Shown one piece after another: positions 23,114 through 50,551 of a stretch of DNA of 64,000 bases. Under the pieces are notes generated by a model that was not told where the DNA came from, searched no databases, and worked only from the letters and a program-made list of their open reading frames with translations. Numbering within the stretch: the stretch's first letter is position 1; every line of letters begins with the position of its first letter. Source of the stretch: Campylobacteraceae bacterium. GTDB taxonomy: Bacteria; Campylobacterota; Campylobacteria; Campylobacterales; Sulfurovaceae. The translations under genes were made by a program, and so were the position numbers. Location: contig JALVUD010000008.1 of the NCBI GenBank assembly GCA_027035765.1, positions 62,001 through 126,000 on the forward strand, in the 5' to 3' direction.

Positions 23114-24445
23114 TTATTTCCGGCGACGATAACTCAGTGCCTCGAGCAGCGCTTTGCGACCGATCTGTTCCGATCCCTCCAGATCGGCGATGGTCCGGGC
23201 CACCTTTTTGATGCTGACAATGGAGCGGTGGGAGAGGGCGAAGCGTTGGACCGCCTGAGCCAGAATCTGTTCCGCCTCCGGATCCAAGCGACAAAAGCGC
23301 TCAACCTCCGCTTCGTTCAATTTACCGTTGAGCCGCATCTGCCCCCGCTTCTTTTGCCGCGTAAAGGCCGCCAAAACCCCCTCGTGCATCTGGGCGGAGC
23401 TGACCGACCCCCGATCATCCGCCTCCACCTCCTGCATCGTCACGAAGAGATCGATCCGGTCCAGAAAGGGATCGGAGAGGCGGTTGCGATAACGTTTGAT
23501 CTCCGCTTCACTGCAGCGGCAAGCCCGCTCTTTGGCCAGCAGGTTGCCGCAGGGGCAGGGGTTCATGGCGGCGACAAACATAAAATCCGCTTCGTAGCTG
23601 ACCTTGCTGTTGACCCGGGCGATATGGACCCGACGATCCTGCATCGGTTCTCTCAGTGCCTCCAGAGCGTTCTTGGAGAAGTGGGGCAACTCATCAAAAA
23701 AGACCATTCCATGGTGCGCCAGAGCAATTTCCCCTATTTTTGCCTGATGCGTACCTCCCCCGAAGATCGAGGCGGAAGTGGCGGTGTGATGAGGTGACCT
23801 TGCCGGGCGCAGCGGTTGAAAATCGGGGATTTGACCGTCGAGGAACTGATGTTTGGCTACCGCCAGCAACTCCTCCTCGGCAAGGGGAGGAAGAATGAAG
23901 CGCAGACGTTTGGCGATCATACTCTTGCCGCAGCCGGGGCTCCCCTCCATTAGAAGATTATGCATCCCGGCCGCGGCGATGAGAGCCGCCCGTTTGGCCA
24001 GCTCCTGCCCTTTGACCTCGGCAAAATCCTCCGGATACTCCCGGCGAAAGAAATAGCGCGTTCCTTCCAGCTCCAGCACCTCTCCCTCGTAGTCGCTCCC
24101 TTCGGGAGAGACGATACCGGGCTCTCCCCGCAGTGCCGCGATCGCCTCCTGGAGATTGGCCACCGGCAGATATTCGATTCCCGGAATATGCCGCAAATAC
24201 TCCATCGCCTCAGCCGGGACCATCGCCCGACGGATTTTTCCCTGCTCCTTGAGCGAGAGCAGGAGAGGAAAGAGCTGGGAACTGCTCTTGACCCGACCGT
24301 CGAGCCCCAGCTCGCCGAAAACATAGAGATCCTCCCGGTCGATAGACTCTTTATTCAACGCAATCAGCAAAGCGATGGGCAGATCGAAGTGCGTACCGGA
24401 TTTACGTGGCGATTCTAAGTAACTACGCCGTATTAAACTATGCAA
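23114..24445 (-). pseudogene. comM: comM/yifB, 3' fragment with AAA+ domain, cut off by the transposon
   Basis: Native comM sequence covers 23114-24406 (about 430 residues). It starts RKSGTHFDLPIALLIALN, which is mid-domain for a protein that should have about 90 more residues; those are found 26 kb away at 50552-50827. The AAA+ ATPase is intact: Walker A GSPGCGKSMIAKRL, Walker B VFFDELPHF, and the C-terminal helical part CRLDPEAEQIL to VARTIADLEGS. ComM is a ring helicase that extends branch migration in natural transformation. The element end supplies an in-frame extension starting at TTG 24445 with GGAG nearby, so a truncated protein might be made. Confidence 0.9.
24407..24422. repeat. left transposon junction: core hexamer plus 10-bp terminal inverted repeat
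   Basis: The hexamer 24407-24412 reads TCGCCA in the comM sense and abuts TTCTAAGTAA (24413-24422). The latter is the exact inverse of 50536-50545. Deleting the element together with this hexamer joins GAT GCC to CGT AAA and restores an in-frame ComM (D-A-R-K-S-G), matching the spacing of intact homologues. Confidence 0.85.
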
Positions 24446-24583
24446 GGCACTCCATAAAATGGGCTTCTTTCCAAGTTGAACCCCTTAACCACGAAAACCG
24501 CCCTTAACTCAGCATCCCTCTTTTTTTCTCCGGCGCATCCCACACCTTTCCGGCGGCGGACTATCATCTCCCAACCATTCGCC

Positions 24584-24904
24584 TCATCCGCCGACGGAAC
24601 GGCCCCGACGACTTTTCCGTATTCTTTGGGGAAGAGAGTCTTTCTTCTCTATCTCCTCTATCGTCCTGAATTCCCTCTCTTTCACGAGGCCGCTGATATT
24701 CTCGTTCATTCTTAGCGCGAACAGGATCTTCAGAACGGCCTCCAGCGAGATCCTGCCGTTGTAGATGAAGTTCTTGTAGGTGGGAAGAGGCACCGACGCC
24801 CTTTCGGACAGTTCTTTCTGCTGCAGTCTCTGCCTTTTACGCTCCCTTTCTATGTTCCGGGATAGATCCCTTATAATGCTTTTTGGAGTTTTTAGTTCGA
24901 TCAC
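24584..24904 (-). CDS. small HTH (XRE-like) regulator
   Basis: 106 residues, GTG start with AGGAG 5-6 nt upstream. Residues 15-60 form a helix-turn-helix: IERERKRQRLQQKELSERA then VPLPTYKNFIYNGRISLEAVLKI. The C-terminal tail is basic (RIRKSRRGRSVGG). It is the first gene inside the left end of the element, reading outward. Upstream is an AT-rich stretch with several near-consensus promoter boxes. It could control the element or be an antitoxin, but no toxin gene is recognised next to it. Confidence 0.72.
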   Translation of the reverse strand: MIELKTPKSIIRDLSRNIERERKRQRLQQKELSERASVPLPTYKNFIYNGRISLEAVLKILFALRMNENISGLVKEREFRTIEEIEKKDSLPQRIRKSRRGRSVGG

Positions 24905-24985
24905 GTGATCTCCTTTAGGGATATTATATGATACATCAAATATATTGACAGGATTTTAAGTATAATATCGTATCCTTTATCTACT

Positions 24986-25760: not shown

Positions 25761-25832
25761 GACCAAATGCCCGCGACCGCTCAATTTGTCGAAGCCCTAA
25801 AGATAAAGCGGTTATACTATGACGATTCGGTT

Positions 25833-25939: not shown

Positions 25940-26512
25940 TCAACTCGTGAACCCGCCATCCTTCAGAAAGGGAACGGCACCCAGCATTCTGTATCTCATG
26001 CCAAACGCCCTGAACGCGTCTTCCGGGGTTTTCCACGGCGCGTTCATCCCGTACTGCCGGGCCGTCTGCGCCAGAAACGCCAGGTAGGAGGCGAAGGCCA
26101 GATGGTAGCGCTGCCTGTCCGCGACATCGTAAAGCCTGCAGAGACGGGCAAACTCCAGGATCCCGATCCGCGCAAGCGGATGATAGCCGGGGTGCTCCTC
26201 GATAACCTCCATGGCATGATCGATCGTTTCCTCGATCTCTTCCGTCTGATGGCGCAGTTCCCACAGGTCCCGTTCTCCCCATCCCCTGCATTCCAGCCAC
26301 CAGGATCGGGGGAGATCCAGTTCGACGGGTTCTCCGGCGTCCGCGGGTTCCGGTTCTTCGGAGAACATGGGCGGAACGGTTTCCCGCCTTGTCTCGACAT
26401 CCAGGTACGCTTCGAGATCGTCCGGGATCTCGACACCCTCTTCCGGAATGAACCCGGCTTCATGGAGGCTTTCATCGAACAGACCATACCCTTCCCGCAG
26501 ACTTTTCCCCAT
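25940..26512 (-). CDS. hypothetical protein, partner of the VirD4-like ATPase
   Basis: About 190 residues from the ATG at 26512, chosen because AAGGAG lies 6-7 nt ahead; an ATG 15 nt earlier lacks a site. The N-terminal third is acidic (EEGVEIPDDLEAYLDVE, EEPEPADAGEP). The rest is helical with many aromatic residues (RSWWLECRGWGERDLWEL and RYHLAFASYLAFLAQTA). No family recognised. It follows the ATPase gene by 24 bp on the same strand and should be co-transcribed with it. Confidence 0.7.
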   Translation of the reverse strand: MGKSLREGYGLFDESLHEAGFIPEEGVEIPDDLEAYLDVETRRETVPPMFSEEPEPADAGEPVELDLPRSWWLECRGWGERDLWELRHQTEEIEETIDHAMEVIEEHPGYHPLARIGILEFARLCRLYDVADRQRYHLAFASYLAFLAQTARQYGMNAPWKTPEDAFRAFGMRYRMLGAVPFLKDGGFTS

Positions 26513-26536
26513 TCTTTTCTCCTTCATCTTCAGGTT

Positions 26537-28546
26537 TCAGATCCCGGGGAATCCGGGATCCCCGCTATTGGCCCTTCCGGCACGCTCTTTGGCACGCTCG
26601 ATGTAGACCCTTTCCATATCCTCTCCGCTGTCGAACCCGAACGGGCTCAGCGAGGAGTTCTCCATGAACTCCTCGAAACGCTCCCGGCAGCCGGTTCCTG
26701 TTCTGTCGCACTCCCCGTTCTCCCGGAGGAAGAGAAGGTACCGGATGAACGCCGCCTGTTCGGCCAGAACCCCGAAGCTCCGGAGGGTCCTGCGTTCCCG
26801 GTAGCGTCTGTGGAATTCCAGGAACGGAAGATCGCAGAGGCAGGCATCCTCCCCGCCGTCCAGGACGTCCAGGGCCTCGGCAACCGTTTCATCCAGATGC
26901 CGGAGCCTCTCCCGCCCCCACATATAGCCGTCGTTCGCCGCCGTTCTCGGGTCCTCGCCGGGCCGGGGCAGCATCGGGAACGCGGGGGCCGCGGCTTTCT
27001 CCTCGGCGATCCCCAGCATGCGGCGGTACTGCCTGGCGGCCCTGCGCCCTAGATACTCCAGGGTCACGGTATTTCCCGCCTCGTCCTCGATCAGGATCGA
27101 GTCGGCCATGGAGAAGCTGCGGGGGTCGTAGACGATCCTGCAGCGTCCGGGCAGCCGGTCCGTTACGAGGAAGCTGCTTCTCAGACGCATCAGGGTATCG
27201 GGCAGGGCGTTATGCTCCATTTCCGCCTCGTCAAGCTCCTCCTCCCCCAGCACGAGCGGTTCGGGCCGGAACGTCCGCTCGTCCTCCCCGCTCCGGTAAT
27301 GGACCCTGAACCCCGGCATCATCTCGAAGCGGTGTACGAAGTTGTTCTTCTGGGCCTCCCACCCTTCGGGGGTGAACTTCCGGATCATCTGCCCCTCGTT
27401 CTGGTACGCCACGATCAGCTCGACCTTCGTTTCGCGCAGCACGTCGCTGTGCAGGTCCAGCCCGCCGGGCAGCACGCGGTTGGCCTCGTCCACGAATACG
27501 GAGACCGGCCGCGGGTCGCGCTCTCTGCGCAGTCTCATCGTGAGACGTTCGAGCTCGTTCCCCAGCATGATGGAGAGGATGTGATCGTCCACACCCTCGA
27601 CATCCACGACCATGATCTCCCCGTCCGCGACAAGCTCCTTTCTCCCGTAGTTGGCATATTCCCGGGAAGCGATGGTGGCGAGGTGGTTCTCCAGAGTCTG
27701 CCGCACGCCGTTGTTGCCCGTGGAACTGCCGTTGGATCCATCCATCTGCAGCTGGTTCGTCTGTCTGCAGTGGACGGCCAATTTCGAAAGGGCCAGGAAA
27801 TATCCCTCCGTCACTTTCCGCATCTCCTCGAAACTCCCCACGAGATTCATCAGTTCCCGCCCCTTCCTTTCCAGCCTTTCCAGGAGAGGGTCGAGGCCCG
27901 CGAAGAAATCGTTGAACGTGCCGGCATCCTTCGCGATCTCATAGACGTCGGAGAAGGAGGGCTCCTCCTCCATCTCCAGGCGGCCGAAAAGGCGGATCTC
28001 CCGGTAAAGCTCATTCCCGTCATCGTCCGTCTGTCCCGCGGGGATCTCGACGCATTCCCCGAAAAGGCCGTCCGCCCCGGCGGGGTCGATCTCGCCGTAA
28101 AGCCGCTTCAGCCGGTAGAGATGCCGCAGCGCCGTGAGGATCGCCTCCCCGAAGTTCCCGGCGGTATTGGCCCAGTAGGGGTCCCGCTGCCCGACTCCAC
28201 CGCCCAGATCGATGATGCACTGCCGGGCGTCCTTCACGCTCAGGGATGCCAGGATGTTGACCGGGGTCCCGTGCGGTTTTCCGAACTCCCTGACGTCCTC
28301 CAGTCTGCCGTGGCGTCTGGCGACGGCCTTGACCTGCCGATGCTCGTGCCCCTTGTAGGCGAAAAAGAGGACGGTGTGGCCCCGGGCTATCCTGTCTTCG
28401 AGCGTCGGCAGGATGACGCTCGCGCTTTTCCCGCTCCCGGTGCTTCCGCTGCAGCTCGCATGCCGGAAATCGAGGGGGATGACGATCTTCTCCCCCGTCA
28501 CCGTTTCGGCATCCGCCCTCCCGAATCCGATCGCCTTCATCGTCAT
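26537..28546 (-). CDS. VirD4/TraD-like P-loop ATPase, soluble
   Basis: 669 residues. Walker A GSTGSGKSASVI lies near residue 35 and Walker B VSVFVDEANRVL near residue 350. DPYWANTAGNFGEAILTALRHL matches the conserved Trp-containing segment of type IV coupling proteins, and RETKVELIVAYQNEGQM the sensor region. Unlike true coupling proteins there is no N-terminal membrane anchor: the P-loop begins within 40 residues. No relaxase or secretion genes are present, so a role in DNA translocation for defence or element maintenance is as likely as mobilisation. AAGGAG precedes the start, and a consensus promoter drives it. Confidence 0.8.
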   Translation of the reverse strand: MTMKAIGFGRADAETVTGEKIVIPLDFRHASCSGSTGSGKSASVILPTLEDRIARGHTVLFFAYKGHEHRQVKAVARRHGRLEDVREFGKPHGTPVNILASLSVKDARQCIIDLGGGVGQRDPYWANTAGNFGEAILTALRHLYRLKRLYGEIDPAGADGLFGECVEIPAGQTDDDGNELYREIRLFGRLEMEEEPSFSDVYEIAKDAGTFNDFFAGLDPLLERLERKGRELMNLVGSFEEMRKVTEGYFLALSKLAVHCRQTNQLQMDGSNGSSTGNNGVRQTLENHLATIASREYANYGRKELVADGEIMVVDVEGVDDHILSIMLGNELERLTMRLRRERDPRPVSVFVDEANRVLPGGLDLHSDVLRETKVELIVAYQNEGQMIRKFTPEGWEAQKNNFVHRFEMMPGFRVHYRSGEDERTFRPEPLVLGEEELDEAEMEHNALPDTLMRLRSSFLVTDRLPGRCRIVYDPRSFSMADSILIEDEAGNTVTLEYLGRRAARQYRRMLGIAEEKAAAPAFPMLPRPGEDPRTAANDGYMWGRERLRHLDETVAEALDVLDGGEDACLCDLPFLEFHRRYRERRTLRSFGVLAEQAAFIRYLLFLRENGECDRTGTGCRERFEEFMENSSLSPFGFDSGEDMERVYIERAKERAGRANSGDPGFPGI

Positions 28547-29747: not shown

Positions 29748-30308
29748 TCACCGCCTGCCATGCCGGGCTTTTCCGGCGGGCCGCTTCTCCGATCCCTGCA
29801 GCCCGTTTTCCTCCCGCCACCTGCCCAGAAGCCTTTTCCCGCTTTTATCCAGATGCCCGGAAAGAACGTCGAGCTTTTCGAGGATCTCTTTTCTGTCGAT
29901 ATCCTCGCACATGAGATCCCGAAAATCCAGAGTGTCAGGATATTCCCCCTTGATCTCGATATCCCAAAAGAGCAGATCCAGAATCGCCCTAATCGGCGTG
30001 GCGCATAGCCACTCCCCCTCGAATCCCCGCTCCCGAAGCCAGGGGCCGCAGTCCCAGATCCCGTACTCCCCGAAAACGTCCTCCGCGCCGATGATGACCG
30101 TCGGGTGCATCACGAAGCCCGACTCCCTGGCTCCCCTTAGCGTATCGACCTGGTGCCAGTCGCACAGGATCCCTTCGCAGGGGATGTTCAGGGCGCTGAA
30201 CCCGGTGATGTAGGAGAACCGGTAGTTTCTGGCGAAATGGGGCTTCTTCCTCAACTCCGCGTCCCGTTTTGCTGTTTTCTCCCTGATCCGTTCCACAAGG
30301 TCGCCCAT
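29748..30308 (-). CDS. hypothetical protein
   Basis: 186 residues. Mixed charge, with a central region rich in Trp and Cys (CDWHQVDTL, YGIWDCGPWLRERGF, EWLCATPIRAILDLLFWDIE) and a basic C-terminus (KRPAGKARHGRR). The segment ATPIRAILDLLF faintly recalls AbiEi-type antitoxins, too weak to assign. It lies between the MerR region and the helicase-nuclease operon, 109 bp from the latter, on the same strand. Confidence 0.6.
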   Translation of the reverse strand: MGDLVERIREKTAKRDAELRKKPHFARNYRFSYITGFSALNIPCEGILCDWHQVDTLRGARESGFVMHPTVIIGAEDVFGEYGIWDCGPWLRERGFEGEWLCATPIRAILDLLFWDIEIKGEYPDTLDFRDLMCEDIDRKEILEKLDVLSGHLDKSGKRLLGRWREENGLQGSEKRPAGKARHGRR

Positions 30309-30417: not shown

Positions 30418-32427
30418 TTACCCGGACCTCTCTTTCGCGCCTTCCCTCGCGTATTTGACGGGATAGGGCATGACCGTCAGTTCCTTGTTCTTTACAAAGT
30501 AGTGTTCCATCAGGGAAAAAAGGAAATCGCCGTCGATCTTTCCGCCGATTTTAACAATTTTCCGATACGGACTGTTTCGGTCCATACACTCCACAATTCC
30601 AACATCGGACAGGCCCACACGATACAGAACGTCGCCATTTTCCTCCCTATACTGGATGCCAAGCATCCCGGCAAAGGCGTGCTTGTGATCTCTGCCGCGT
30701 GGAAGAAACCTCAATGGGCGTCCCGCGGTCTTTTCAAGTGCCTTTTTGAGTCGCTCGTGCCGGCGAAGGCGCTTCATTAGGGACGACGACGGTACGCCTT
30801 TAGGTGTTTCCATCTCGTCAAGCATAGACAGGAAGGCTGTGCGAGGGTCGTCGAAGCCCGGAGAAGGATCTTTTTGTCCGGGGGGATACTGCCCCGTCAT
30901 ATCGGCACACCGGACGACATCATTCTTCGAAAAATAATATTCCGACGTGCTTTCCCGAAACAGGCGGTCGAGATAGTCGAAGTCGGGCAGGGGCATGAAG
31001 GCCGTCCGCGTTCCCAGGACTGTATTCCCTTCGGGATCGGTTATGACGTATTCAGGAACTTCTCCCCGGGGAAGTCCGGAGAGTGCCCTCGTAATGGTTC
31101 GTCGATCCGAATCCGTAATGGCAGAAGCCTTCATTCTTCCCCCTTCCATCCACGAAACTCCATAGATGGCCGATTCCGAATCCATATCTCTGAAATTCTC
31201 AATCGAATAGAAGCGATAGCCCTTCAAAACCTCCCCATGGTCTATGAACGGGTCGTATCCGAGCAATTCGCACTTGATGGCGAGTTCCTTCAACAGCACT
31301 CCAAGAATGGTTTCCCCTGTTTTCCGTTTTGACTCCTGGAGAGAAACCGTGAAATTTTGCACCGGCACATGACCCGGAATGTCGGCATAGGGGTCAGACT
31401 CCCCGTTTTTCTCATAGAACTCTTTCTCAAGGGTGAGGGAGATGTTAGGAACGGAAGAATCGATGGATTCTCCCATAGAGAGAATGAATTCGCCATCAAA
31501 CAGGGTTGCCGCCTGCCGGTTTATATATGCCTCCATCTCCTTCGCGAGCCGTCGCGCCGCTTCGTCACAACGGTGGTCCAGGACAGCGATGTGGACCCGG
31601 GGGATGTCTTTGGCATAATGTCGGATCGTTTCGTCAAGGCGAGTTAGCTTCTTTTTCTTATCCTTTGCAAGAGTATAGATTTGGAATTCCTCTTTCGAAA
31701 ACTCCAGGCGGACAAGCCCGGCGAGATACGTCCGGACTTCCTCTGAAATCCGGTGGAAAAAATAGGTCTTGCTCTGCCGGAATCTGTGGTCAAGGCAGAG
31801 GAAGGGGATACGCGCCCGGGTATCACCCCGGCTGCCTTTTTCGTAAACCGTCCGACCCACATCCTGTTGAGGGACATAGGGGCGCAGCGCCCCGGCATCT
31901 TCCACGAGATATCCGGAGCCTCCTTCCTTCGGGGAGTGCACGATTTTGAAGCTTCTCGCTCCCAAAAACATCAATACTCCCTCTTCTCTCTCCTTCACTT
32001 CAACTTCAAGGGCGAGCATGTCCGCGCCCTTCGTCATACCAAAGCTGTATGGATAGTAGAGCTTGTACGGATTTTCCGGAATGTCGAACAGAATATGCTC
32101 TCCCACCATGAGGGAGAGCAGCATGGAAAAGAGAGAGGAATCCTTCATCTCCTTCAGCCGTGCAAGCCCGACTCTTTTCGGCCCGAGATCATTTCCGTCG
32201 ATATCCGTCCCTTTGCGGACCATGAAAAAATAGGTGCGGCCCACGACAGCCCTGGCCAGGGGGGAAATCTCCCTGCGGATTCGGGCGTAGAATTTTTTTC
32301 TGGCCGCCTCCTTCCCCCGGAAGTCCGGAATCGGAATTTCGTAGAGATCATAACGCCGCAGAATCTCCGCGTAGTCGAAGTCGAGGTTGATTTTATTGGT
32401 TAGTGTCGAGACCGTCGATTCATTCAT
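30418..32427 (-). CDS. 669-aa protein of unknown function, coupled to the helicase-nuclease
   Basis: The ATG at 32427 overlaps the stop of the helicase gene by 8 nt (ATGAATGA), so both are made from one transcript with coupled translation. No P-loop, signal peptide or membrane helices. Segments that look conserved by composition are VHIAVLDHRCDEAARRLAKE (residues about 285-305), GHVPVQNFTVSL and LLKELAIKCELLGYDPF (about 370-420), and AIYGVSWMEGGRMKASAI (about 430-450). The alternation of strands and helices in the last 300 residues could be an RNase H-like or PIWI-like fold, but no catalytic set is clear. Unknown otherwise. Confidence 0.7.
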   Translation of the reverse strand: MNESTVSTLTNKINLDFDYAEILRRYDLYEIPIPDFRGKEAARKKFYARIRREISPLARAVVGRTYFFMVRKGTDIDGNDLGPKRVGLARLKEMKDSSLFSMLLSLMVGEHILFDIPENPYKLYYPYSFGMTKGADMLALEVEVKEREEGVLMFLGARSFKIVHSPKEGGSGYLVEDAGALRPYVPQQDVGRTVYEKGSRGDTRARIPFLCLDHRFRQSKTYFFHRISEEVRTYLAGLVRLEFSKEEFQIYTLAKDKKKKLTRLDETIRHYAKDIPRVHIAVLDHRCDEAARRLAKEMEAYINRQAATLFDGEFILSMGESIDSSVPNISLTLEKEFYEKNGESDPYADIPGHVPVQNFTVSLQESKRKTGETILGVLLKELAIKCELLGYDPFIDHGEVLKGYRFYSIENFRDMDSESAIYGVSWMEGGRMKASAITDSDRRTITRALSGLPRGEVPEYVITDPEGNTVLGTRTAFMPLPDFDYLDRLFRESTSEYYFSKNDVVRCADMTGQYPPGQKDPSPGFDDPRTAFLSMLDEMETPKGVPSSSLMKRLRRHERLKKALEKTAGRPLRFLPRGRDHKHAFAGMLGIQYREENGDVLYRVGLSDVGIVECMDRNSPYRKIVKIGGKIDGDFLFSLMEHYFVKNKELTVMPYPVKYAREGAKERSG

Positions 32428-37065: not shown

Positions 37066-37713
37066 ATGAAGAAACTGCTACTCCTGATTCCCGTGCTCAT
37101 GTCACTGGCCTCCGTCCCTTCTCTTGCGGAAAGTCCCTGTCCGATCCATCTCCACAATTCCCGCTACGACGTCTGCTACTCCTGCAAGCGCAAGACTCCG
37201 CTATCCGTCACCTACGAGATACGGCGGGAAGACGTGGAGGGAAAGCGGAAGCGCCCCGCCTTCTCTTTCCGTCCCGACTACCGGCTTCCGGCGAAGTGCC
37301 GGAGCTATCCGAAGGACTACGCCGGGACGGGATACGACCGGGGGCACCTGGCCCCGGCAGGGATCTTCGGAGGCTGGAAAGAGAGGAAGGAGACCTTCCT
37401 GATGAGCAACGTCGCTCCGCAGAAGCCCTCCGTGAACCGGGGCGTCTGGGCTAAAATCGAACGTTTCGCCAGGATCATGGCGGTCCGCTACGGGAAGGTG
37501 GAGGTGACGACGGGCGTCTGCTTCGACGGCGAGAGGAGCTTCATCCGGCACGGAGTGGAGATCCCGGATCGGTGGTACAAGATCATAAGGATCCCGAATA
37601 GGAAAGAGCCGGTGGTGTTCGTGGTGCCGAACCGGAAAGGCGAAAAGGAAAATATAAAATTTTTTCTTTGCACATATGATATACTTTTTAACATTTGTGC
37701 GAATAACGAATAA
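37066..37713 (+). CDS. secreted DNA/RNA non-specific endonuclease, C-terminus apparently replaced
   Basis: 215 residues from ATG 37066 (GAGAAGG upstream). A signal peptide is clear: KKLLLLIPVLMSLASVPSLA. The nuclease signature YDRGHLAPAG is at about residue 90, with the metal-binding Asn region MSNVAPQKPSVNRGVW about 30 residues later, as in NucA/EndA. The last 20 residues (IKFFLCTYDILFNICANNE) are unlike the family. Base composition drops sharply at about 37655, so the end is probably a chance reading into the AT-rich restriction module. Confidence 0.85.
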   Translation: MKKLLLLIPVLMSLASVPSLAESPCPIHLHNSRYDVCYSCKRKTPLSVTYEIRREDVEGKRKRPAFSFRPDYRLPAKCRSYPKDYAGTGYDRGHLAPAGIFGGWKERKETFLMSNVAPQKPSVNRGVWAKIERFARIMAVRYGKVEVTTGVCFDGERSFIRHGVEIPDRWYKIIRIPNRKEPVVFVVPNRKGEKENIKFFLCTYDILFNICANNE

Positions 37714-41086: not shown

Positions 41087-41087
41087 G

Positions 41088-44000
41088 ATGAAAAGCAGCG
41101 ATCTGACTCTTTTCAGAGAAATTTGTGACAGCCTGGATGAGGGGCTCTACCGGCAGATTCAGATACCGGACAAGGAATTTGTGTCCGATGTAGAAAGCGG
41201 ATCCAAATTTGACGAGTTCGCCTCCCGCTGCAGTGTCGAATACGATTTCAGCGACATAGAAGAGAAGCTCGGGGTGAGCTTACGATACTATCAGCGCTTG
41301 GCGCTTTACTTTACCAAATATTACTTTGAGAAGAAATACCTAATCAACGGCAACGAAAACAACAAGTTGACCTATTGGATGGCAACGGGCAGCGGCAAAA
41401 CCATCATCATGAAAGCCAATATTGTCGATTATTTCGAATACTTGAGAGACAAAAACCCCGATGAAATCGAAGTGGTCGTCACTTCTCCACTCAAGGAGCT
41501 GATCGGGCAGTTGCAGATCGAAATCGGCGACTTTTTCGCCAATGAATACTTCAGGGATTTCAAATTCAGCTACACGGTGGAGACCACACAGAGCCTGATC
41601 GAAAGATACAAAAGCGAATCTCATGAGATTGTAGGGGAAAACCAGTTTCGGCTCTTGTTGGTGGATGAAGCGCACATCGGACTCGGCCGCAAAGACAAGG
41701 GGGCTTTCGTTGCCTTGAGAGACGCGCTGACGCAAAACGCCGCCCACAGTTTCATGTTCGAATATAGCGCCACTTTTTACGACATCACCGAAAGGGAACA
41801 AATCGACGAGTATGCGCGAAGAATCATCTATGAGTATGACTATGGCAAGTTTTATAACGACGGCTACGGCAAAGACTTCAAGTTCGACGTGGTAAAAAAG
41901 GATGCCATCGCCGAAGATGAAAACCGTGACATTAAGCGGAATCTCGATGCGAACTTTGAAGCGTTCCACAAGAAAATGGAGGCTTTTTACGCCTACAACG
42001 GGAACCGAAAGCTCCACAGAGGCAAACTTTTTCCCAACCGGCCGCTGCTTGTCATGGCAGGCAATACCGTATCGGCCAACAAGGAGAGCGACGCCGACAA
42101 TATAGAAAACAGCGACATCGCGAAGATTGTAGACTACCTGGCGAACCTTGAGAGTAACGTTATAGGCAACCACATCAATATCTTCAACGCCGCCGAGGGC
42201 GCACTCCACCTGCTGCAAAACCGAGCCAACGAAGATGAGCTGCTGATGGCCTACGGAGAAAACACCACTCCGTTTGGGCTTGTCACCGTAGGCGATGTGA
42301 AGAAGTTTTTCGAAAACCAAAACATTCAAAAACTCATTGAACGCGGGAAGATCATAGTCAAAGATATCAAGTTTACCGATGAGAATTGGCTTTTTAGAAA
42401 TATAGACAACGAGAGCAGCCCTATCAACATATTGATCGGAAGCAGAAAATTCAGTGCGGGATGGAACAGCTTCAGAGCCAGCCAGATATGCCTTATCAAT
42501 TTCGGGACGGGAAGCGGGCCGACCATCATCCAGATGTTTGGACGAGGCGTGAGGCTGAGGGGGCTGAATGACGACGGGAAGAGGACCGAAAGGCACTATG
42601 TGAAAGAAAACGGCGGGAAAACGGAGTTTTTGCCGCATTCGAAAGAGAACGTTTTAAGTAAAGAGAAATATGACCTTTTGAAATATCTTGAGACCCTGTT
42701 TATTTATAGCTTGCGGAGCACATATCTAAAAAGATTTGTCGAAGAGGATACCGATATTTATCAAAAATGTGTCATTTCGAGCAAAGAGGTCTCCGTGCGA
42801 GACGAATACAAAGAGACCAAATTACCAATTTTCTATGTCGATAAATCGGTTTTAGACCGTGAAAGTATTATCAAGGTAGATCACTTATGGATCGAGAACG
42901 GCCAACTGGATATTCATTACACTTTCAATTTGTCCCCTAATCACATCGCTATAAATCTTCCCTTGATCATTGATTTTACGATCAAAAAAGAAACCACACT
43001 AAAATTTGACAAAATAAACTACTTGAAATATTTCGTAGATAGGGCATATATAGAAAACCTAATCTACAAACGCCTCCAAAAAAACAATATCACCATCATA
43101 GATTTTGACTTAGACTATATAATTTCTTTACTAAAACCGGGTATAGTCACTGTCAAATATGATGGAGAAATAAACAGTCCCGGGCAGTTTCAAAGACTCT
43201 TGTTGAAGGTCGCCTATGCTCTGATCTCCAAGATCAAAAATAAAATCGAAGACAATGAGACAAAGCAAAAATATAAATTCGATCAGGAAATAAAAGAAGA
43301 TGATTATATAGACCGATACGATATAAAATTTGTTCTTAATAAATCAGCCGATGTAAAAGAGGTCTCAGACAGGTTAGATAAGGACAAATCATATAAACTA
43401 TTCATAGATAGTATCATTAATCATTATTATTATCCACTGGCAATCAATCCAAACTCTGACAGTAGAAAAGTTTTTGAAACTTATAAAAAATGCCTTGATA
43501 ATACATTTACTGAAAATTACAAAACTATAATAGATTCAGACAGTAATTTTTTTAAAGATATAGAATTTATTAGAATCTCTCCAGACAAATTGGAGCCAAA
43601 TGAATTTAAATTTGTTTGTGATCTGCAAGAGCATATAAGCAAAAGTGACCTAAATGCAGTCATATTTAGAAACAAACCAAGAGGAAATATCGGATTAATC
43701 GGAAACAGCGAGATATTTTACCCGGACTTTATAATATGGTATCTTGACGATAAAGAACGTCAACATATTATTTTTTGTGATCCAAAAGGCATTAGAAATG
43801 CTGAAACTAAGTGGAAAGTATGCGATGCACCATATTATGTAAAAGAAATTGAAAACGAATGGGGAAGCTCGGTAATTTTACATTCATTTATTATTTCAAA
43901 TACACCAAAAAAAAATATTGTTTGGTCTCCCATAGATAAATTGAGCATAGAGCAATGTGGACTATTTTATAATTTGGTTTTTATGGAAGACTGTAGATAT

Positions 44001-44378
44001 ATAGAGAGAATATTTGAGTCAACAAAGCGAGATATACGTATTCATCGAGATTTTATGGAGTATTTAGAATATTATGACAATAGTATATTAAACGAATGGC
44101 TCAATGACGAAAAAAGGAAAGAACATTTAAAAAATCTAAATCACATTTCTAACTTAAACGATCTCAATCAAGCCAAAAAACTTCTGTTATATTTTACACT
44201 CTATAAAAATAGAGACTTGCTTAAAGAGGAGATATTAAATGATACACAGGATGTTATAAAATCTACCATTATTGAAGAATTACTACCTAGCTTTATCACT
44301 GAAATTATTCCAGGAGCTAAAATCATATATAAAATTGCAAAATTGATAGCCAAAGAATACAGCCAAAATACTCAATAA
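41088..44378 (+). CDS. res: type III restriction endonuclease subunit (Res)
   Basis: About 1096 residues from ATG 41088, directly after the mod stop; an in-frame start 48 nt earlier lies inside mod. DEAD-like translocase motifs: WMATGSGKTIIM (about residue 100), LLVDEAHIGLG (about 190), MFEYSATF (about 222), and SAGWNSFRASQICLINFGTG with IIQMFGRGVRL (about 460-485). The C-terminal part carries YPDFIIWYLDD and IIFCDPKG, a PD-(D/E)XK-like nuclease site. The last half (from about 42650) is much more AT-rich than the first, a sign of recombination. Works with Mod to cut unmodified DNA. Confidence 0.9.
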   Translation: MKSSDLTLFREICDSLDEGLYRQIQIPDKEFVSDVESGSKFDEFASRCSVEYDFSDIEEKLGVSLRYYQRLALYFTKYYFEKKYLINGNENNKLTYWMATGSGKTIIMKANIVDYFEYLRDKNPDEIEVVVTSPLKELIGQLQIEIGDFFANEYFRDFKFSYTVETTQSLIERYKSESHEIVGENQFRLLLVDEAHIGLGRKDKGAFVALRDALTQNAAHSFMFEYSATFYDITEREQIDEYARRIIYEYDYGKFYNDGYGKDFKFDVVKKDAIAEDENRDIKRNLDANFEAFHKKMEAFYAYNGNRKLHRGKLFPNRPLLVMAGNTVSANKESDADNIENSDIAKIVDYLANLESNVIGNHINIFNAAEGALHLLQNRANEDELLMAYGENTTPFGLVTVGDVKKFFENQNIQKLIERGKIIVKDIKFTDENWLFRNIDNESSPINILIGSRKFSAGWNSFRASQICLINFGTGSGPTIIQMFGRGVRLRGLNDDGKRTERHYVKENGGKTEFLPHSKENVLSKEKYDLLKYLETLFIYSLRSTYLKRFVEEDTDIYQKCVISSKEVSVRDEYKETKLPIFYVDKSVLDRESIIKVDHLWIENGQLDIHYTFNLSPNHIAINLPLIIDFTIKKETTLKFDKINYLKYFVDRAYIENLIYKRLQKNNITIIDFDLDYIISLLKPGIVTVKYDGEINSPGQFQRLLLKVAYALISKIKNKIEDNETKQKYKFDQEIKEDDYIDRYDIKFVLNKSADVKEVSDRLDKDKSYKLFIDSIINHYYYPLAINPNSDSRKVFETYKKCLDNTFTENYKTIIDSDSNFFKDIEFIRISPDKLEPNEFKFVCDLQEHISKSDLNAVIFRNKPRGNIGLIGNSEIFYPDFIIWYLDDKERQHIIFCDPKGIRNAETKWKVCDAPYYVKEIENEWGSSVILHSFIISNTPKKNIVWSPIDKLSIEQCGLFYNLVFMEDCRYIERIFESTKRDIRIHRDFMEYLEYYDNSILNEWLNDEKRKEHLKNLNHISNLNDLNQAKKLLLYFTLYKNRDLLKEEILNDTQDVIKSTIIEELLPSFITEIIPGAKIIYKIAKLIAKEYSQNTQ

Positions 44379-44500: not shown

Positions 44501-45166
44501 TCACACCCTCGCCAACGTCCCTACAATCCTCCCAATCACCGTCACCTCTTCCGGATTCTCTATGGACGGGGGATAGGCGGGGTTCTCCGAAATGAGCTCC
44601 ACGCGCCCCTTCGTGTCGAACCTGACCCTCTTGACGAAGACCATGCCGGCGACGTTCACGGCGTAGATGCCCCCGTCGGAGATCGTGTTCCTGCTCCGGT
44701 CGATGAGCACGAGGGAGCCTTCCGGGATGGTCGGCTCCATCGAATCCCCGACGACCCGGACCGCCTCGATGCGCCCCATGTCGGAGATGCCGATGGCCTC
44801 CGCCGATTTTCGGTCGAGGACCAGCCACTCCCCCTCGTCCCCCTCCGTTTCCTCGTTGACGGCTCCCCCGCCGCCGGAAACGGTGTATTTGCTCAGGAGA
44901 TGGATCTTGTAGACGTCCTCCATGGCCTCGTCGATCATCCTCGGGCTCTGCCCGAAGAGTATCCAGTTGATGGAGATCTTCCGCTTCGCCGCGAAGAGGG
45001 AGATCTCCTCGAAGGGGACGGCGCCCCGCTTCTTCATGTTGGAGAGGTTCGTGGGGGAGAGCCCGAGGGCGGCGGCGATGTCCTTTTCGTAGGGCGTTTC
45101 CCCGCTTTCGGCTTCCATCGCCATCGCGAGACGGTCGAGGATCTTCTCCAGGTCGAAAAGGGCCAT
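44501..45166 (-). CDS. S24-family (LexA/CI-like) repressor
   Basis: 221 residues from ATG 45166, with AAGGAG 9 nt upstream; a start 21 nt earlier is less likely. Residues 25-65 are an HTH (YEKDIAAALGLSPTNLSNMKKRGAVPFEEISLFA). The C-terminal peptidase domain has the Ser in VVGDSMEPTIPEGSLVLID and the Lys in AGMVFVKRVRF, the dyad for self-cleavage. It would keep neighbouring genes silent until DNA damage. It lies between the type III R-M operon and the transposase genes. Confidence 0.9.
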   Translation of the reverse strand: MALFDLEKILDRLAMAMEAESGETPYEKDIAAALGLSPTNLSNMKKRGAVPFEEISLFAAKRKISINWILFGQSPRMIDEAMEDVYKIHLLSKYTVSGGGGAVNEETEGDEGEWLVLDRKSAEAIGISDMGRIEAVRVVGDSMEPTIPEGSLVLIDRSRNTISDGGIYAVNVAGMVFVKRVRFDTKGRVELISENPAYPPSIENPEEVTVIGRIVGTLARV

Positions 45167-45201
45167 GGCGCACACTCCTTCCGGCATTTTTCCCGGTTGA
45201 A

Positions 45202-45277: not shown

Positions 45278-48217
45278 TCAGCGTCCGCCGGACGGCAGAA
45301 GCCCCGAAACCCTCCCGGCGAACTTCCGGAACTGCTCCCCGATCTCCCGGGGGTTCTCCAGATAGTGGCCCATCAGGTAGTCGATGGCCCGCTCCGGCGA
45401 TCCGGCGAGCGTGTGGAGCTCTTCCGTATCGTTTCCGGACGCGGCGATCTTCATCGCCTCGATGGTCAGGACCTTCATCCCGTAGAAATCCCTCTCGACC
45501 CCGAAAAGTCCGGCTTCGTATTCGTTGCGGAGATAGGCGAAGGTCTCCGGGACCTTCTCCGTCACGACCCGCACCCCGCCGGGCGAGGGCAGGCGGGCTT
45601 TCTCCTCTTCCGTTTCTTCCCGGTCCCGGAGGAAGCCGTCGAGCCCCTTTTCGATGCGTTCGAGGATTTCGTAGTAGCCGAGGATCTCTTCGAGGATCGC
45701 CTCCTGTTCCGCGGCGCGTGCCGACGAGGCGTAGCCCTTTTCCTTCTCTTCCCGCATCTGGACCGCGCCGCGCTGGAAGCGGGCGAGCGCCCGGTTGGCC
45801 ATCAGCGTCACGCCGTCGAGGAAAAGCCTGCCGGTGATAAAGAAGGGGCAGAGGGAACAGCGGTTCTCCCTCCCTTCCGGGCAGCTCGCCGCCGGGCAGA
45901 TCCCGTGGACCATCGGCCGCCAGTTCGACGGGTGGATCCCGAAGGCGATTTCCGTCCCGAGCCGCACGTTCTCCGCATCCTCCCGGGTGGAATCCGCCTT
46001 CCTCGGCAGGGAGAAAAGGTCGTTGCGCTCCAGCGCCTCGGCCAGCGCCTCATCCCCGCCATTCCACGCCTCGACGATCTCCTCGGCGATGAAGGTCTTC
46101 CCGGACTCCACGGCCTCTTCCCTCTTTCCGAGACGGATGTTCCGGATCGCGCTGGTGAGGGCCCTGCGCCGCTCCTCCTCGGTGAGCTTGACGTAGATGC
46201 TCAGAAGCACGTTGGGCGTGACGTGCCCGGTGAGCATCATCAGATGGGGTATGCCCAGCCCGGCCTCCAGATAGCGGGTAGCTCCCGTCACTCTCAGGGC
46301 GTGGATGTCGTAGGCCGTCTGGATATCCTTTATCCGGTGTCTCGTCGCCCGGTCGATCTCCTCGCGGCTTTCGAAAAAGGGTTTGCCGCTCTTGCTCCAG
46401 GCCACCACGGGCCAGTCCTTCTTTCCCTGCGCCTTCGCCTCTTCCATCACTTCGAGCTGGTAGACGCACAGCAGCCGTCTGTGATAGTCCATCATGGTCC
46501 CCTTGGAGAGCGGCTCGCTGGAGTCCGGCAGGATCATCACGGGCTCGATCTCCTCCCACGGAGAGTTCTCGTCATCGTTGTAGACGATCTTCCGCAGATG
46601 GGGGAAATACTCCCGGTGCCAGCGCAGGAACGGCACGAAGATCTGGAGCTCGTCCCACGCGCAGGGGATCTCCAGCAGATCCTTCCTGTTGACGTTCTTG
46701 TCCGTGTTGATGACGAAACGCTCGATCCTTTCACCCGACGGGTCGAGCACGAAGGAACGCTCCCGGCAGAGATGGCGGGCCTGCCCGCCCCGGAGGGGGA
46801 TCGAATACAGGAAGAGGAAGAGCAGGGGGAGCACGGGCCAGACCTCGTGCTCCCACCACGAGGCGTCCGCCTTGTCCCTGTACCATTTCACCGGGGCGTT
46901 CGGCGGGCGGTTCAGGATGATGTCGTGGATGTGCCTCACCATCTCGGCCGGCATGGCCGTTCTGGCCCCGGTTTTTCTCTTCTTTCTGCTCTCCACGGGC
47001 GTGTTTTTCCTGGCGAAGGGGGTGTAGAGCTCGAAATGGTCGAGAAAACCCGACACATGCTTCATTTTCGTCACCAGCGTGCTCTCGGAAACCCCCGTGC
47101 TTCTGATGTGTTCCACAAGGCCGGAGGGGTTGTTGGGGTCGTAGATCTCGTCGACGAGTCCCCTGTCGAGCTCCCTTCCGGGATAGTGGCGGATCAGATA
47201 CCGGAACAAGGTGTTCAGGCTGGAGGCGGTGCCGCTGACGGTTCCCTTCGCCATCCCCTCCGCCCTGAGCACATCCAGATAGACCTCCCCCTTCCGCATC
47301 ACGGAGACCAGCTCTTCGGGCGCGTCCGGCCCGATGTCGATGAAATCCGGAAACCTTTTCCCGGGATTCCGGCGCTCTTCGGCCTTCCTTCGCGGCGGAA
47401 CGATGTCGCCTCTTCCGTCGTTGACGAGCGCGTAGCGGATGTCGTTGATCACGAGACGGGCGAACTTGATCAGCCTTTTCCGGTCCGGAAGATGCTTCAT
47501 GACGGCTTTTTCGGCCCTGACCAGCCCTTCCTCCGTCACGTCCTCCTTTTCCCGCCACGTCGTACAGACCATCAGGTTCCCGATGGCGTTGAGACGGTAT
47601 TTCCTCGTCCTGGAGACCTCTTCCCCCATGGGTTCGAAGCGTTTCAGGAGAAGATGGAACAGGGACATCTTCCTTTTGAGGAAAACGGCGGACACGGACA
47701 GAACGGTCTTCCATGCCGCCGGCCGCTGGTAGCCTTCCGGATGCCGGAGGGGATAGAGCAGAAGCCCCTTCACCCAGAGATGGGCGAAAAACCTGTCAAG
47801 AATCGCCCGGGCGGTGTACCCCTTCGCCGTCCATCGCTCCGGCTCCGAGAAATAGATACGGACCATTTCGGTCACGTCCATGAGCATCGTCGCGTCGATC
47901 CTCTCTCCGTCGGCGTAATCGACACGGATCACCGGGATCTCCTCCACCATGCCGAGCTGGGACCTGAGTTCGTAGGGAAGCCGGTCCACGGGGAGCTTCC
48001 CGTCGAGACACATGGGGATTTTCTCCGTGTACTTCGCGCTGGAGTAGTGGAGGATGGCCAGCAGGGAGACATTTATGAACTCCATCCAGCATTCGAACAG
48101 GATCCTTTCGGAGCGCAGCTCCTCCATCACCAGGAAACCGCCCGTTTCGTTGACTTCCGGGAACGCATCCGTAAAAGCGAAATTTCCTTCCATGCCGTTT
48201 TGAGGGTCTCTATTCAT
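45278..48217 (-). CDS. large tyrosine recombinase, TnpB-like transposase
   Basis: About 979 residues. The catalytic set of tyrosine recombinases is in place: Arg in SIPLRGGQARHL (about 474), His-Leu-Arg in YDIHALRVTGATRYLEAG (about 640), GH in LMMLTGHVTPN (about 664) and the Tyr in LLSIYVKLT (about 674). About 300 extra residues follow, with a Cys-rich segment (CPAASCPEGRENRCSLCPFF) that may bind zinc, as in large Tn554 TnpB proteins. The start is set at ATG 48217, preceded by AGGAG and overlapping the stop of the middle gene by 8 nt; a TTG at 48244 is the alternative. Confidence 0.88.
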   Translation of the reverse strand: MNRDPQNGMEGNFAFTDAFPEVNETGGFLVMEELRSERILFECWMEFINVSLLAILHYSSAKYTEKIPMCLDGKLPVDRLPYELRSQLGMVEEIPVIRVDYADGERIDATMLMDVTEMVRIYFSEPERWTAKGYTARAILDRFFAHLWVKGLLLYPLRHPEGYQRPAAWKTVLSVSAVFLKRKMSLFHLLLKRFEPMGEEVSRTRKYRLNAIGNLMVCTTWREKEDVTEEGLVRAEKAVMKHLPDRKRLIKFARLVINDIRYALVNDGRGDIVPPRRKAEERRNPGKRFPDFIDIGPDAPEELVSVMRKGEVYLDVLRAEGMAKGTVSGTASSLNTLFRYLIRHYPGRELDRGLVDEIYDPNNPSGLVEHIRSTGVSESTLVTKMKHVSGFLDHFELYTPFARKNTPVESRKKRKTGARTAMPAEMVRHIHDIILNRPPNAPVKWYRDKADASWWEHEVWPVLPLLFLFLYSIPLRGGQARHLCRERSFVLDPSGERIERFVINTDKNVNRKDLLEIPCAWDELQIFVPFLRWHREYFPHLRKIVYNDDENSPWEEIEPVMILPDSSEPLSKGTMMDYHRRLLCVYQLEVMEEAKAQGKKDWPVVAWSKSGKPFFESREEIDRATRHRIKDIQTAYDIHALRVTGATRYLEAGLGIPHLMMLTGHVTPNVLLSIYVKLTEEERRRALTSAIRNIRLGKREEAVESGKTFIAEEIVEAWNGGDEALAEALERNDLFSLPRKADSTREDAENVRLGTEIAFGIHPSNWRPMVHGICPAASCPEGRENRCSLCPFFITGRLFLDGVTLMANRALARFQRGAVQMREEKEKGYASSARAAEQEAILEEILGYYEILERIEKGLDGFLRDREETEEEKARLPSPGGVRVVTEKVPETFAYLRNEYEAGLFGVERDFYGMKVLTIEAMKIAASGNDTEELHTLAGSPERAIDYLMGHYLENPREIGEQFRKFAGRVSGLLPSGGR

Positions 48218-48866
48218 CTTTCTCCTTTCGGTCCGGTTTTTCAAGCGCCTCCGTAAAGAGGGTCTCCATCGCCTCCTTCCTCGCGAGCGGCGTTTCGTAG
48301 AGGGCGAGGACCAGGCTGCCGTCCCCGTCGACGTAGGCCAGCTCCTGTTCCATGAGCCTCTGAACGATGGATCTGGCGATTCCCCGCATCTCCCGGAGCT
48401 TCTCCACGAGATTTTCCGGAACCGCGGCTGCGGAGGCCCTCGGCGGGACCCGCTTCGAAAGCCTGTCGGCCAGAATGCGGTTCTCCCGCTTCAGTTTCGC
48501 GTTCTCGATCCGCAGTTCGTGAAGCAGCATGCGGGCGTCGCCTTCGGAAACGCGGGAGCCGGAACGAGAAACCGTGCCGCCGCCGGACGCCGTTCTGGCG
48601 GCGGCGAGAACGATCTCCCTGTAGATGGGGTTCTTGGAGATCGCGGCGGCGGTGATCCCCTTCTCCCCCCGCTCCCTGTCGGCCAGGTCGTGGGTGAGCC
48701 CCGAAACGAGGCTGAAGTTGGGGATCCCGCCCATTTCGACGATCCGCTCCACCGCCCTGCGCACGAGTTTTTCGTTCGCCTCGACCATCTTTTCCCTGTG
48801 ACGGTCGAGACTGTCGTTTTTCTTCCTCTTCCTCGGGGGTGTTTCCCCCTTTCCGCCTTTCTTCAC
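48210..48866 (-). CDS. coiled-coil accessory transposition protein, TnpC-like
   Basis: 218 residues, highly charged. The N-terminus is basic (KKGGKGETPPRKRKKND). Residues 55-75 contain PNFSLVSGLTHDLADRERG, and about 120-145 form a coiled coil (LLHELRIENAKLKRENRILADRL). This layout resembles the small third protein of Tn554-type transposition modules, TnpC, although that is shorter (about 125). Overlaps both neighbours (ATGA with the upstream recombinase, 8 nt with the downstream one). Confidence 0.7.
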   Translation of the reverse strand: MKKGGKGETPPRKRKKNDSLDRHREKMVEANEKLVRRAVERIVEMGGIPNFSLVSGLTHDLADRERGEKGITAAAISKNPIYREIVLAAARTASGGGTVSRSGSRVSEGDARMLLHELRIENAKLKRENRILADRLSKRVPPRASAAAVPENLVEKLREMRGIARSIVQRLMEQELAYVDGDGSLVLALYETPLARKEAMETLFTEALEKPDRKEKDE

Positions 48867-50191
48867 CTTCCTTCTCCTCCCTCAGACATGATTTTCCTGT
48901 GGGCCTCGCCGACCATCCGCCGCCGCGTCTCCTCGGAAAGCCTGAAGTAGACGAGGGTGGAATCGAGACTGGCGTGCCCCATGGCCCGCTGGGTGATCCA
49001 GACCAGCGACTCGTTCCCCGTTGCCGCATAGAGTTCGGCCATGGAGTGTCCGAACATGTGCCGGAGGCTGTGCAGGCCGAGTTTCCTGATGTCGGGATCC
49101 GCCAGCCCCCTGTCCACGAGGATCTGCAGATGCCGCTTGAACCGGGAGAGGGTCTCCCGCGCGTGGACCCTCTTCCCGCTCCGCGTGACGAAGAGGAACG
49201 GATGCCGGGGATGGCGGAGGGATTCCGGCAGGAAGGCGCCGGAGCGCTGATACTGCGGCAGCGTCTCGAAAAAGAGCGGCCGGTACTTCTCCTCGTTGAT
49301 CCAGTAGAGGGCCTCCCTGTCGAGGGGGATGGGATACTTGAACTGCAGATCCGGGGTGTTGTGCATGCCGTCCCCGTCCATGTCGATGTTGTACTCCTCC
49401 AGGAGCCAGCGCCTGCGGGGGATCCTCGGAGCCCAGGGGATGTCCGGGAATTCGTCGCCCTTCGGATCCAGAAGCCAGACCCTCTCCTTTTCGTAGTCGA
49501 TGTCGTAAAGCGTCAGGTTCAGGGCCTGCCCGATCCGGGCGGAGCAGGCCCCGCAGAGCAGATAGATCAGCCGCTCCCTCGGTTCCGCAATCGCCAGCAG
49601 CTCGTCGAACAGCTTCGGGGGGAAGTAGCGGACGTCCGCCGTGCTTCTCGACTTTCTGTAGGGGGCGAGGAACGTCTTTCTCGCGCCGGAATGCTCCAGC
49701 GCCCGCCGCCCCTTTCGCACCTGCATGCCGGCAAGCAGGCTCCGGCGGCTCTTATGGCGTTCGTAGAGATAGTTGATATAGCGGTGGTCGTAGAGCAGGT
49801 CGTCCTCTTCGCTGAAGGTGAAAAAGGAACGGATTCCCGCGATTTCCCTGTTGACCGTCTGTTTCGTCATCGGGCGGGAGACAAGGACCGGGACGGTCAC
49901 CGGTTCGGGGAATCTCTCATCCTCGTGCGTTTCCTCAAGGACGAATCCTTTCAGGAGATCTTCCCTGTAGCGGGCCAGATAGAGGGTGAAGTTCTCGTCT
50001 TCGCCCACGGGGTTCGCCAGGCTCCACTGCCAGAAGCGGTCCATGCTGGAGGCGAAGGTGCGGATCGTGTTGTCCGAGAGGTTGCGGACCCTTTTCATCC
50101 ACTGCGTCCACTCCAGGCTGCCGCGCAGTTCGACCGTCTCGCCGCCATGCAGGGCGCAGATGGCGATTCCTCCTCCTTCCCGGATCAGCAT
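48863..50191 (-). CDS. tyrosine recombinase, TnpA-like transposase
   Basis: 442 residues. An N-terminal SAM-like DNA-binding domain (LSDNTIRTFASSMDRFWQW) precedes the catalytic domain: Arg in CGACSARIGQALNLTLYDID (about 217), His-Leu-Arg in LHSLRHMFGHSM (about 375), GH in RAMGHASLDST (about 402) and the nucleophile in LVYFRLS (about 413). It is the first gene of the three-gene transposition operon; a palindrome lies 66 bp upstream of the start. Comparable in role to Tn554 TnpA (361 residues). Confidence 0.9.
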   Translation of the reverse strand: MLIREGGGIAICALHGGETVELRGSLEWTQWMKRVRNLSDNTIRTFASSMDRFWQWSLANPVGEDENFTLYLARYREDLLKGFVLEETHEDERFPEPVTVPVLVSRPMTKQTVNREIAGIRSFFTFSEEDDLLYDHRYINYLYERHKSRRSLLAGMQVRKGRRALEHSGARKTFLAPYRKSRSTADVRYFPPKLFDELLAIAEPRERLIYLLCGACSARIGQALNLTLYDIDYEKERVWLLDPKGDEFPDIPWAPRIPRRRWLLEEYNIDMDGDGMHNTPDLQFKYPIPLDREALYWINEEKYRPLFFETLPQYQRSGAFLPESLRHPRHPFLFVTRSGKRVHARETLSRFKRHLQILVDRGLADPDIRKLGLHSLRHMFGHSMAELYAATGNESLVWITQRAMGHASLDSTLVYFRLSEETRRRMVGEAHRKIMSEGGEGR

Positions 50192-50545
50192 CTTTTCCGT
50201 CTCCCTTCTCTCGGTTTTCCGGCATTCTACATCCGGTTAGAGGTAAAACGGTAGAAAATTCACATATTGTGAATTAGCCTTTAATTCAATTTTCCTGCTG
50301 CTCTCCCTGAAAACGCATCTGCCCTGAACCTGGCAAAAAAGGAAGAATCCCTGACCGGATAGAAAAACTCTTCTTTTTTAGCCTGAAGCCCCCTTGCAGA
50401 AACAGGAAAATCGGTTACACAGTTAAATTACCTTTGAATATTTCCAGTGTTTCCAGAAAGATCAAAAATGACAATATATTATTTCAATTGAGCGACAATT
50501 CACAGAATATTGAGGATTGAGTTGAAGAGTTATTATTACTTAGAA
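50192..50545. other. right subterminal region of the element
   Basis: 354 bases without coding potential and much richer in A and T than the transposase genes. It holds the tnp promoter and operator (below), another AATTCACA at 50497-50504 and, at its outer end, the terminal inverted repeat. The repeated octamer may mark recombinase or repressor binding. Confidence 0.6.
50257..50275. promoter_or_regulatory. palindromic operator of the transposase operon
   Basis: AATTCACA-TAT-TGTGAATT, perfect 8-bp arms. On the reverse strand a weak promoter overlaps it: TTGAAT, 17 bp, TATGTG. A bound repressor would therefore block the transposase genes. Confidence 0.55.
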
Positions 50546-50551
50546 GGCATC
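50536..50551. repeat. right transposon junction: terminal inverted repeat plus core hexamer
   Basis: TTACTTAGAA (50536-50545) is the inverse of the left end. The adjacent 50546-50551 reads GATGCC in the comM sense and belongs to the comM codons for Asp-Ala. From memory, the Tn554 target core in radC is GATGTA, which shares the GATG. Confidence 0.85.

Follow-up and report, generated by a model that had tools for sequence, protein, structure and literature searches.

Transposons of the Tn554 family carry the genes tnpA, tnpB and tnpC in that order and have radC as their target. The comM gene, which functions in DNA uptake, is a target of other elements: in Acinetobacter it is occupied by AbaR islands and many other elements, which have been linked to lower transformation (PMC11472951), and in several genera it holds integrase elements that were argued to escape deletion in this way, with secreted nucleases as a second device (PMC4774983; Croucher 2016). 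Both the TnsF-guided Tn6022 and the recombinase transposon Tsy also enter comM, in a study that set aside TnsF relatives without the zinc-finger N-terminal region (PMC10293859; Faure 2023). A rule by which six bases are carried from one site to the next was described for the strand-biased circularizing integrative elements (SEs), and was noted there for Tn554-related elements (PMC10214605). Here, an insertion of 26,133 bp in the comM gene of an uncultured Campylobacteraceae bacterium is described from a 64-kb stretch of its genome (the window; contig JALVUD010000008.1). The insert is very probably a transposon moved by tyrosine recombinases, within the broad Tn554/SE/GMT/Tsy type, from a Campylobacterota lineage that has codon 97 of comM as its home site.

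The insertion, its ends and its recombination genes

The comM gene lies on the minus strand of the window, where it runs from 50842 down to 50546, is broken for 26,133 bp at codon 97, and resumes at 24412. The features of the site are:

50546..50842, minus strand: comM 5' part, up to codon 97, with GATGCC as its last six bases (sequence; joined protein compared with ComM of G006)
50536..50545, minus strand: recombinase-proximal end, TTCTAAGTAA (exact-sequence count; end comparison)
24413..24422, plus strand: recombinase-distal end, inverted TTCTAAGTAA (exact-sequence count; end comparison)
24407..24412, minus strand: hexamer TCGCCA, brought in with the element as the footprint of its former site (absent from intact comM of relatives)
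23114..24406, minus strand: 3' part of comM (sequence; rejoined frame)

An earlier, sequence-only reading of the window had described two co-linear parts of one comM gene, 26 kb apart on the same strand, and this was confirmed. It had also located the element at 24407-50551, which is the right place with wider limits, as the element proper spans 24413-50545 and the remaining bases are the two hexamers. The sequence TTCTAAGTAA is present exactly twice in the window, once at each end and in opposite orientations, where 0.06 occurrences would be expected by chance. The hexamers abutting the element do differ, being in the sense of comM GATGCC on the recombinase side (50546-50551) and TCGCCA on the far side, and removal of the element together with one hexamer restored the open ComM frame as predicted, whichever of the two hexamers was taken.

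The closest relative, G006, has an uninterrupted comM that is 96% identical over 529 residues, and the joined ComM protein from the window matches its product. At the insertion place the intact gene reads CCCCAAGT GACGCC CGGAAATCG, encoding NLAPSDARKSG, in agreement with the joined site that had been predicted. The intact gene thus keeps a version of the recombinase-side hexamer, which indicates that GATGCC was the original target and that TCGCCA, not found in the intact comM of relatives, is a foreign footprint carried in with the element. A comM gene was found in 59 of 60 genomes, the window's own genome among them, and was mostly intact.

Next to the 5' part of comM, the element encodes the following genes:

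48863..50191, minus strand: tnpA-like tyrosine recombinase of 442 amino acids, P0001 (Pfam Phage_integrase, 3.4e-9; full-length weak match to GmtY, 1.3e-12, below cut-off)
48210..48866, minus strand: TnpC-like small protein of 218 amino acids, P0005, with a helical N-terminal domain and a coiled coil (hhalign; AF2)
45278..48244, minus strand: tnpB-like large tyrosine recombinase of 988 amino acids, P0003, with a C-terminal Cys4 motif (weak match to GmtZ, 5e-11, below cut-off; catalytic region conserved in relatives)
44501..45187, minus strand: CI/LexA-type repressor with an S24 peptidase (Peptidase_S24, 5.6e-22; fourth gene, conserved in G042 and G051)

The reading frames of the recombination trio are all open, and their products share conserved residues with those of relatives. 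P0003 also matches Phage_integrase weakly; its Cys4 motif is C-terminal and conserved in relatives, and no N-terminal Cys clusters were found in the protein. The scores of 47.7 bits for GmtY and 41.3 bits for GmtZ did not reach the NCBIfam equivalog cut-offs, which are 340 and 600 bits, respectively. The Tn554-type yardstick was a trio on a Peribacillus plasmid (L108), in which a recombinase, a large recombinase and a DUF6262 protein are encoded in the order A-B-C beside a JAB-domain gene. The family profile of the TnpC-like protein aligned with the DUF6262/TnpC protein of this trio (hhalign probability 83.7, E 8e-6) and with no other yardstick protein, while the TnpA profile fell below threshold with Tn554-type TnpA and TnpB, the recombinases being remotely similar only. 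A two-row AF2 model of P0005 showed helices at residues 15-94, mostly confident, and a coiled coil at 108-139, with low confidence overall, and the TnpC-like label for P0005 appears reasonable. The order tnpA-tnpC-tnpB is kept in eight Campylobacterota elements besides that of the window, and the trio followed by the S24 repressor gene, four genes in all, is found in identical order in G042 and G051. Adjoining the Peribacillus trio, at L108 1-1438, a second set of genes was observed in the order YRec-HTH-integrase (recombinase, HTH protein and site-specific integrase).

Movement and recurrent target in relatives

The movement of such an element is recorded in G042, a one-contig genome from another genus, which contains two copies of 13,739 bp each that are 99.985% identical (C1:2185514-2199252 and 1353311-1367049). 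Copy 1 splits comM, also at codon 97, with GATATC as its proximal and TTTGTG as its distal hexamer; copy 2 lies between genes and has ACTTCA proximal and GATATC distal. Since copy 2 bears the comM hexamer GATATC on its distal side, it must have been made from copy 1, which stayed in place; the reverse order was rejected because ACTTCA would then have been expected next to copy 1. Six bases would agree by chance in about 1 of 4,096 cases. The proximal hexamer of the donor thus became the distal hexamer of the new copy, as in Tn554, and the pair is consistent with strand-biased circle formation leaving no empty site, as in SEs. Such movement, in which a hexamer is carried along and the donor is retained, had otherwise been inferred from laboratory experiments with SEs, and the G042 pair is a record of it from nature. 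The second G042 copy has a frameshift in the large recombinase, leaving an open frame of 867 instead of 965 amino acids.

In the mechanism proposed, TnpA and TnpB, with the TnpC-like protein as a small DNA-binding helper, would circularise the element by joining its ends, and the circle would retain the hexamer next to the recombinase-side end. When the circle integrates into comM, chosen presumably by one of the element's proteins, the hexamer of the target would be left on the recombinase side, and the hexamer brought in would come to lie distally. The donor could meanwhile persist (copy-out), and the S24 repressor may control the element.

A scan of 397 Campylobacterota genomes for the large recombinase gave 11 genomes with a match, some of them weak, and further members were found later. 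Codon 97 of comM is entered in five elements, those of the window, G042, G051, G341 and G533, with the proximal hexamers GATGCC, GATATC, GATGTG, GAGATG and GAGCTG and ends starting TTCTAAG, TTCTAGG or TACTAAT. In G423 and G263, comM is entered at codon 245, just before Walker A, in the opposite orientation. In every case with both ends, these two included, the recombinase-side hexamer fits comM. A search for the trio in other genomes had been suggested beforehand, and the sites listed were codon 97, codon 245 and places outside comM; the repeated use of codon 97 supports the proposal that the element targets comM. In a tree of the large recombinase, the window grouped with G042 and G051 (support 98/97), then with G331 and G341, and the remaining rows formed long branches.

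The perfect 10-bp inverted repeats described in the sequence-only reading hold for the window and are not a constant of the family, as the two ends of the G042 element have only TTCTAAG (7 bp) in common and match at about 12 of 18 bp overall. In the relatives the trio was not accompanied by longer ends, which would have refuted the first proposal.

Two loci were not counted as members: G352, with comM broken at codon 133 and a broken tnpB, and G290, with a 2-kb gap at codon 100 and no trio. Also set aside were G026, G441, G227, G425 and G389, where the comM pieces were single or at contig ends and reflect contig breaks or incomplete sequence.

Several relatives lie elsewhere. G335 (L068, G335:C1 near 63,200) and G500 (L143, near 9065) carry elements at an identical place in a yaaA-like gene (named by eye), which serves a different branch of the family as a second home site. 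Searches among plasmids yielded a single relative, pSulSP, on a Sulfurospirillum plasmid (L072; NZ_CP118374.1, 4500-17150). This element sits inside a non-specific endonuclease gene, yet carries an intact endonuclease gene of that family of its own, together with a nickel/cobalt efflux gene, and an IS21-type insertion parts its tnpA from the middle gene. The scan of genome contigs for relatives returned G051 and L047 only, and scans of viral contigs found no relative. L047 (WAJZ01000034.1) was binned with the archaeon Hestiella, and its genes include one for a large recombinase that shares 49% identity with P0003 and one for the S24 repressor; it is probably a mis-binned Campylobacterota contig.

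Comparison with described systems

The alternative that survives best is a narrower version of the preferred reading and is compatible with the same mechanism, namely that the element belongs directly to the Tsy group (YRec-HTH-TnsF) and reached comM by common descent with ZooTsy. As in Tsy (PMC10293859), the gene order is YRec, small HTH protein and large tyrosine recombinase, with two active recombinases, and the element lies in comM with the 5' part of the gene adjoining YRec and the cargo at the far end. However, ZooTsy uses the Walker B site of comM (residue 335 of ComM), whereas this clade uses codon 97 or the approach to Walker A. The large protein here, of approximately 930-990 amino acids, lacks the N-terminal zinc-finger region of TnsF, as P0003 illustrates, and has its Cys4 motif at the C terminus. 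The elements described here have recognisable inverted ends and a hexamer footprint, whereas Tsy was reported without inverted repeats (PMC10293859), and no GIY-YIG nuclease was seen after tnpB. In addition, the TnpB family gave an hhalign probability of 0.8 of 100 against TnsF-like proteins, those compared coming from the Tn7-like inserts in comM and not from ZooTsy. Direct membership of the Tsy group was judged unlikely, albeit the strongest of the alternatives.

The mode of movement resembles that of SEs (PMC10214605) and GMT islands, in which one ordinary and one large recombinase occur, the inverted ends are imperfect, a 6-bp fingerprint moves from the proximal flank to the distal side, and the donor is retained. 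The split attB at both borders, the imperfect inverted repeats and the 6-bp spacer of SEs are all found here, and the likeness to GMT islands extends to the GmtY and GmtZ profile matches, which are weak and below cut-off. In contrast, the SE core intA-tfp-intB-srap, judged by the published description, is not present; there are three recombination genes with a TnpC-like gene in the middle, and no tfp gene was detected between the recombinases. Moreover, SEs were reported only in Gammaproteobacteria (PMC10214605), whereas this lineage is in Campylobacterota and has comM as its home target.

The sequence-only reading had called the element Tn554-like. The two tyrosine recombinases, one ordinary and one large, the TnpC-like protein, recognised by profile as a remote homologue, the hexamer rule and the target specificity bear out the resemblance, and a true Tn554-family transposon whose target changed from radC to comM was considered. 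Such membership is improbable, as the gene order is A-C-B and not A-B-C, no NCBIfam match rose above cut-off, the TnpA profile stayed below threshold with Tn554-type TnpA and TnpB, TnpB has 988 amino acids against 672 and a C-terminal Cys4 motif conserved in relatives, and the target gene and host phylum are different.

The element thus combines a Tn554- or SE-like way of working with the gene order and target of Tsy, but lacks defining features of each, and it has been filed as a new variant of tyrosine-recombinase transposon. The closest known kind is Tsy, which had already been shown to enter comM.

A degraded genomic island, in which comM was split long ago and the recombinases no longer work, was rated lower still. 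The single copy in the window genome means that recent movement there cannot be shown, yet the three recombination genes are open with conserved residues, the ends are intact, the closest relative has an empty site and G042 holds a nearly identical daughter copy. An assembly artefact joining unrelated contigs at comM can be dismissed for practical purposes, for although the genome is a draft of 47 contigs, the two parts of comM are found co-linear within a single contig of 143 kb and rejoin in frame, and the junction type recurs in the one-contig genome G042 and in other assemblies.

Cargo, and comM as a shared target

The element was predicted to carry a defence-type cargo, and the Type III, DdmDE-like and AbiEi-like genes support this. 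The cargo genes are:

41040..44378, plus strand: Type III restriction subunit (PADLOC REase_III, 1.8e-41; homologue in the G042 element)
37778..41086, plus strand: Type III DNA methyltransferase (PADLOC MTase_III, 1.5e-109)
37051..37713, plus strand: DNA/RNA non-specific endonuclease with an apparent signal peptide and a DRGH motif (PF01223, 6.1e-36; sequence)
36111..36941, minus strand: calcineurin-like phosphoesterase (Metallophos, 4e-15; PADLOC PDC-S10, 8.1e-13)
32420..35968, minus strand: DdmD-like helicase-nuclease (PADLOC DdmD, 1.1e-19; PDB 9ix4 DdmD, 3.6e-35)
30418..32436, minus strand: possible DdmE partner of 672 amino acids (overlaps the ddmD-like gene; weak match to PDB 9iw3, E 0.16)
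29748..30308, minus strand: AbiEi-like protein (PADLOC AbiEi, 5.1e-16)
26537..28546, minus strand: HerA/VirD4-like ATPase (weak matches only; P-loop GSTGSGKS)
25940..26527, minus strand: protein adjoining the ATPase (no match in family searches)
24584..24904, minus strand: small HTH_3 protein near the distal end (HTH_3, 2.7e-4)

No DdmE homologues useful for a profile were found in the Campylobacterota genomes searched. The HerA/VirD4-like ATPase and its partner gene are possibly further genes for defence or transfer.

A scan of comM in the same 397 genomes found 15 with Tn7-like genes in comM (TnsA-like, Mu-type transposase, TniB and TniQ; loci such as L073-L095), the inserts occupying codons 74, 317-320 or 385-398. 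The window element shares with Tn6022/AbaR and the Tn7-like comM islands the disruption of comM and a cargo of defence or resistance genes; the islands differ in their DDE transposition with Tns/Tni proteins and, in Campylobacterota, in the comM codons used, and no TnsA, TnsB, TniB or TniQ genes were found in the window element. A zinc-finger protein resembling TnsF adjoins TniQ in the Tn7-like elements of G016, G202, G356, G362, G371 and G439. In other Tn7-like elements the proteins next to comM are of different kinds, and one of them matches TnsE_C weakly. Among the proteins encoded next to comM in the Tn7-like elements, clusters c13, c16 and c36 showed no recombinase similarity. The sequence-only reading had seen in the window a different transposon family that had converged on comM. 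Convergence by a different family seems plausible, as no relationship could be detected between the large recombinase and the TnsF-like proteins encoded in the Tn7-like comM inserts examined; the novelty of a transposon other than Tn7-like reaching comM did not stand, as Tsy (PMC10293859) and the integrase elements (PMC4774983) were known before.

Of the 19 comM inserts with complete sequence, 7 encode a nuclease from one of two secreted families, with 8 such genes in 386 kb of sequence. The same families gave 34 matches in 120 whole genomes of approximately 2 Mb each, from which well under one nuclease gene would be expected in 386 kb. Breakage of comM, together with the secreted nuclease, would likely lower the transformation that could delete the element, and the DdmDE-like, Type III and AbiEi-like genes likely act against other incoming DNA. 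The host genome encodes ComEC and DprA. A scheme in which the element guards itself against being cured by transformation fits the data but is not proved by them.

Several points weigh against a transposon that homes to comM and protects itself there. The nuclease background comes from whole genomes and not from other mobile elements, and two relatives outside comM, G331 and pSulSP, carry a nuclease as well, so that the presence of this gene is not bound to comM as the target. Specificity is not absolute, as G331 falls within the same TnpB clade but lies outside comM, and copy 2 of G042 is intergenic. The metagenome bin G051 holds an intact comM on another contig besides the disrupted one (C202, C131), probably a strain mixture. 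Finally, the circle and the movement were deduced from sequence rather than observed directly.

Approximately 20 of the 397 genomes have comM struck, 15 by Tn7-like elements and five by elements of the present kind, and two unrelated machineries thus strike the gene repeatedly across the phylum, at distinct codons. The idea of an intragenomic conflict, in which elements disable transformation to avoid deletion, becomes testable outside Acinetobacter, and with this cargo a gene pair for DdmDE-like plasmid defence is found on a mobile element. It could be, as a tentative suggestion, that homing to comM arose independently in this lineage, giving a third machinery besides Tn7-like/TnsF and Tsy, equipped with a secreted nuclease and with plasmid and phage defences, and protecting itself from removal by transformation. 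In that case, comM would serve as a docking site in general, and the advantage that the element gains from its loss would be the reason for the choice.

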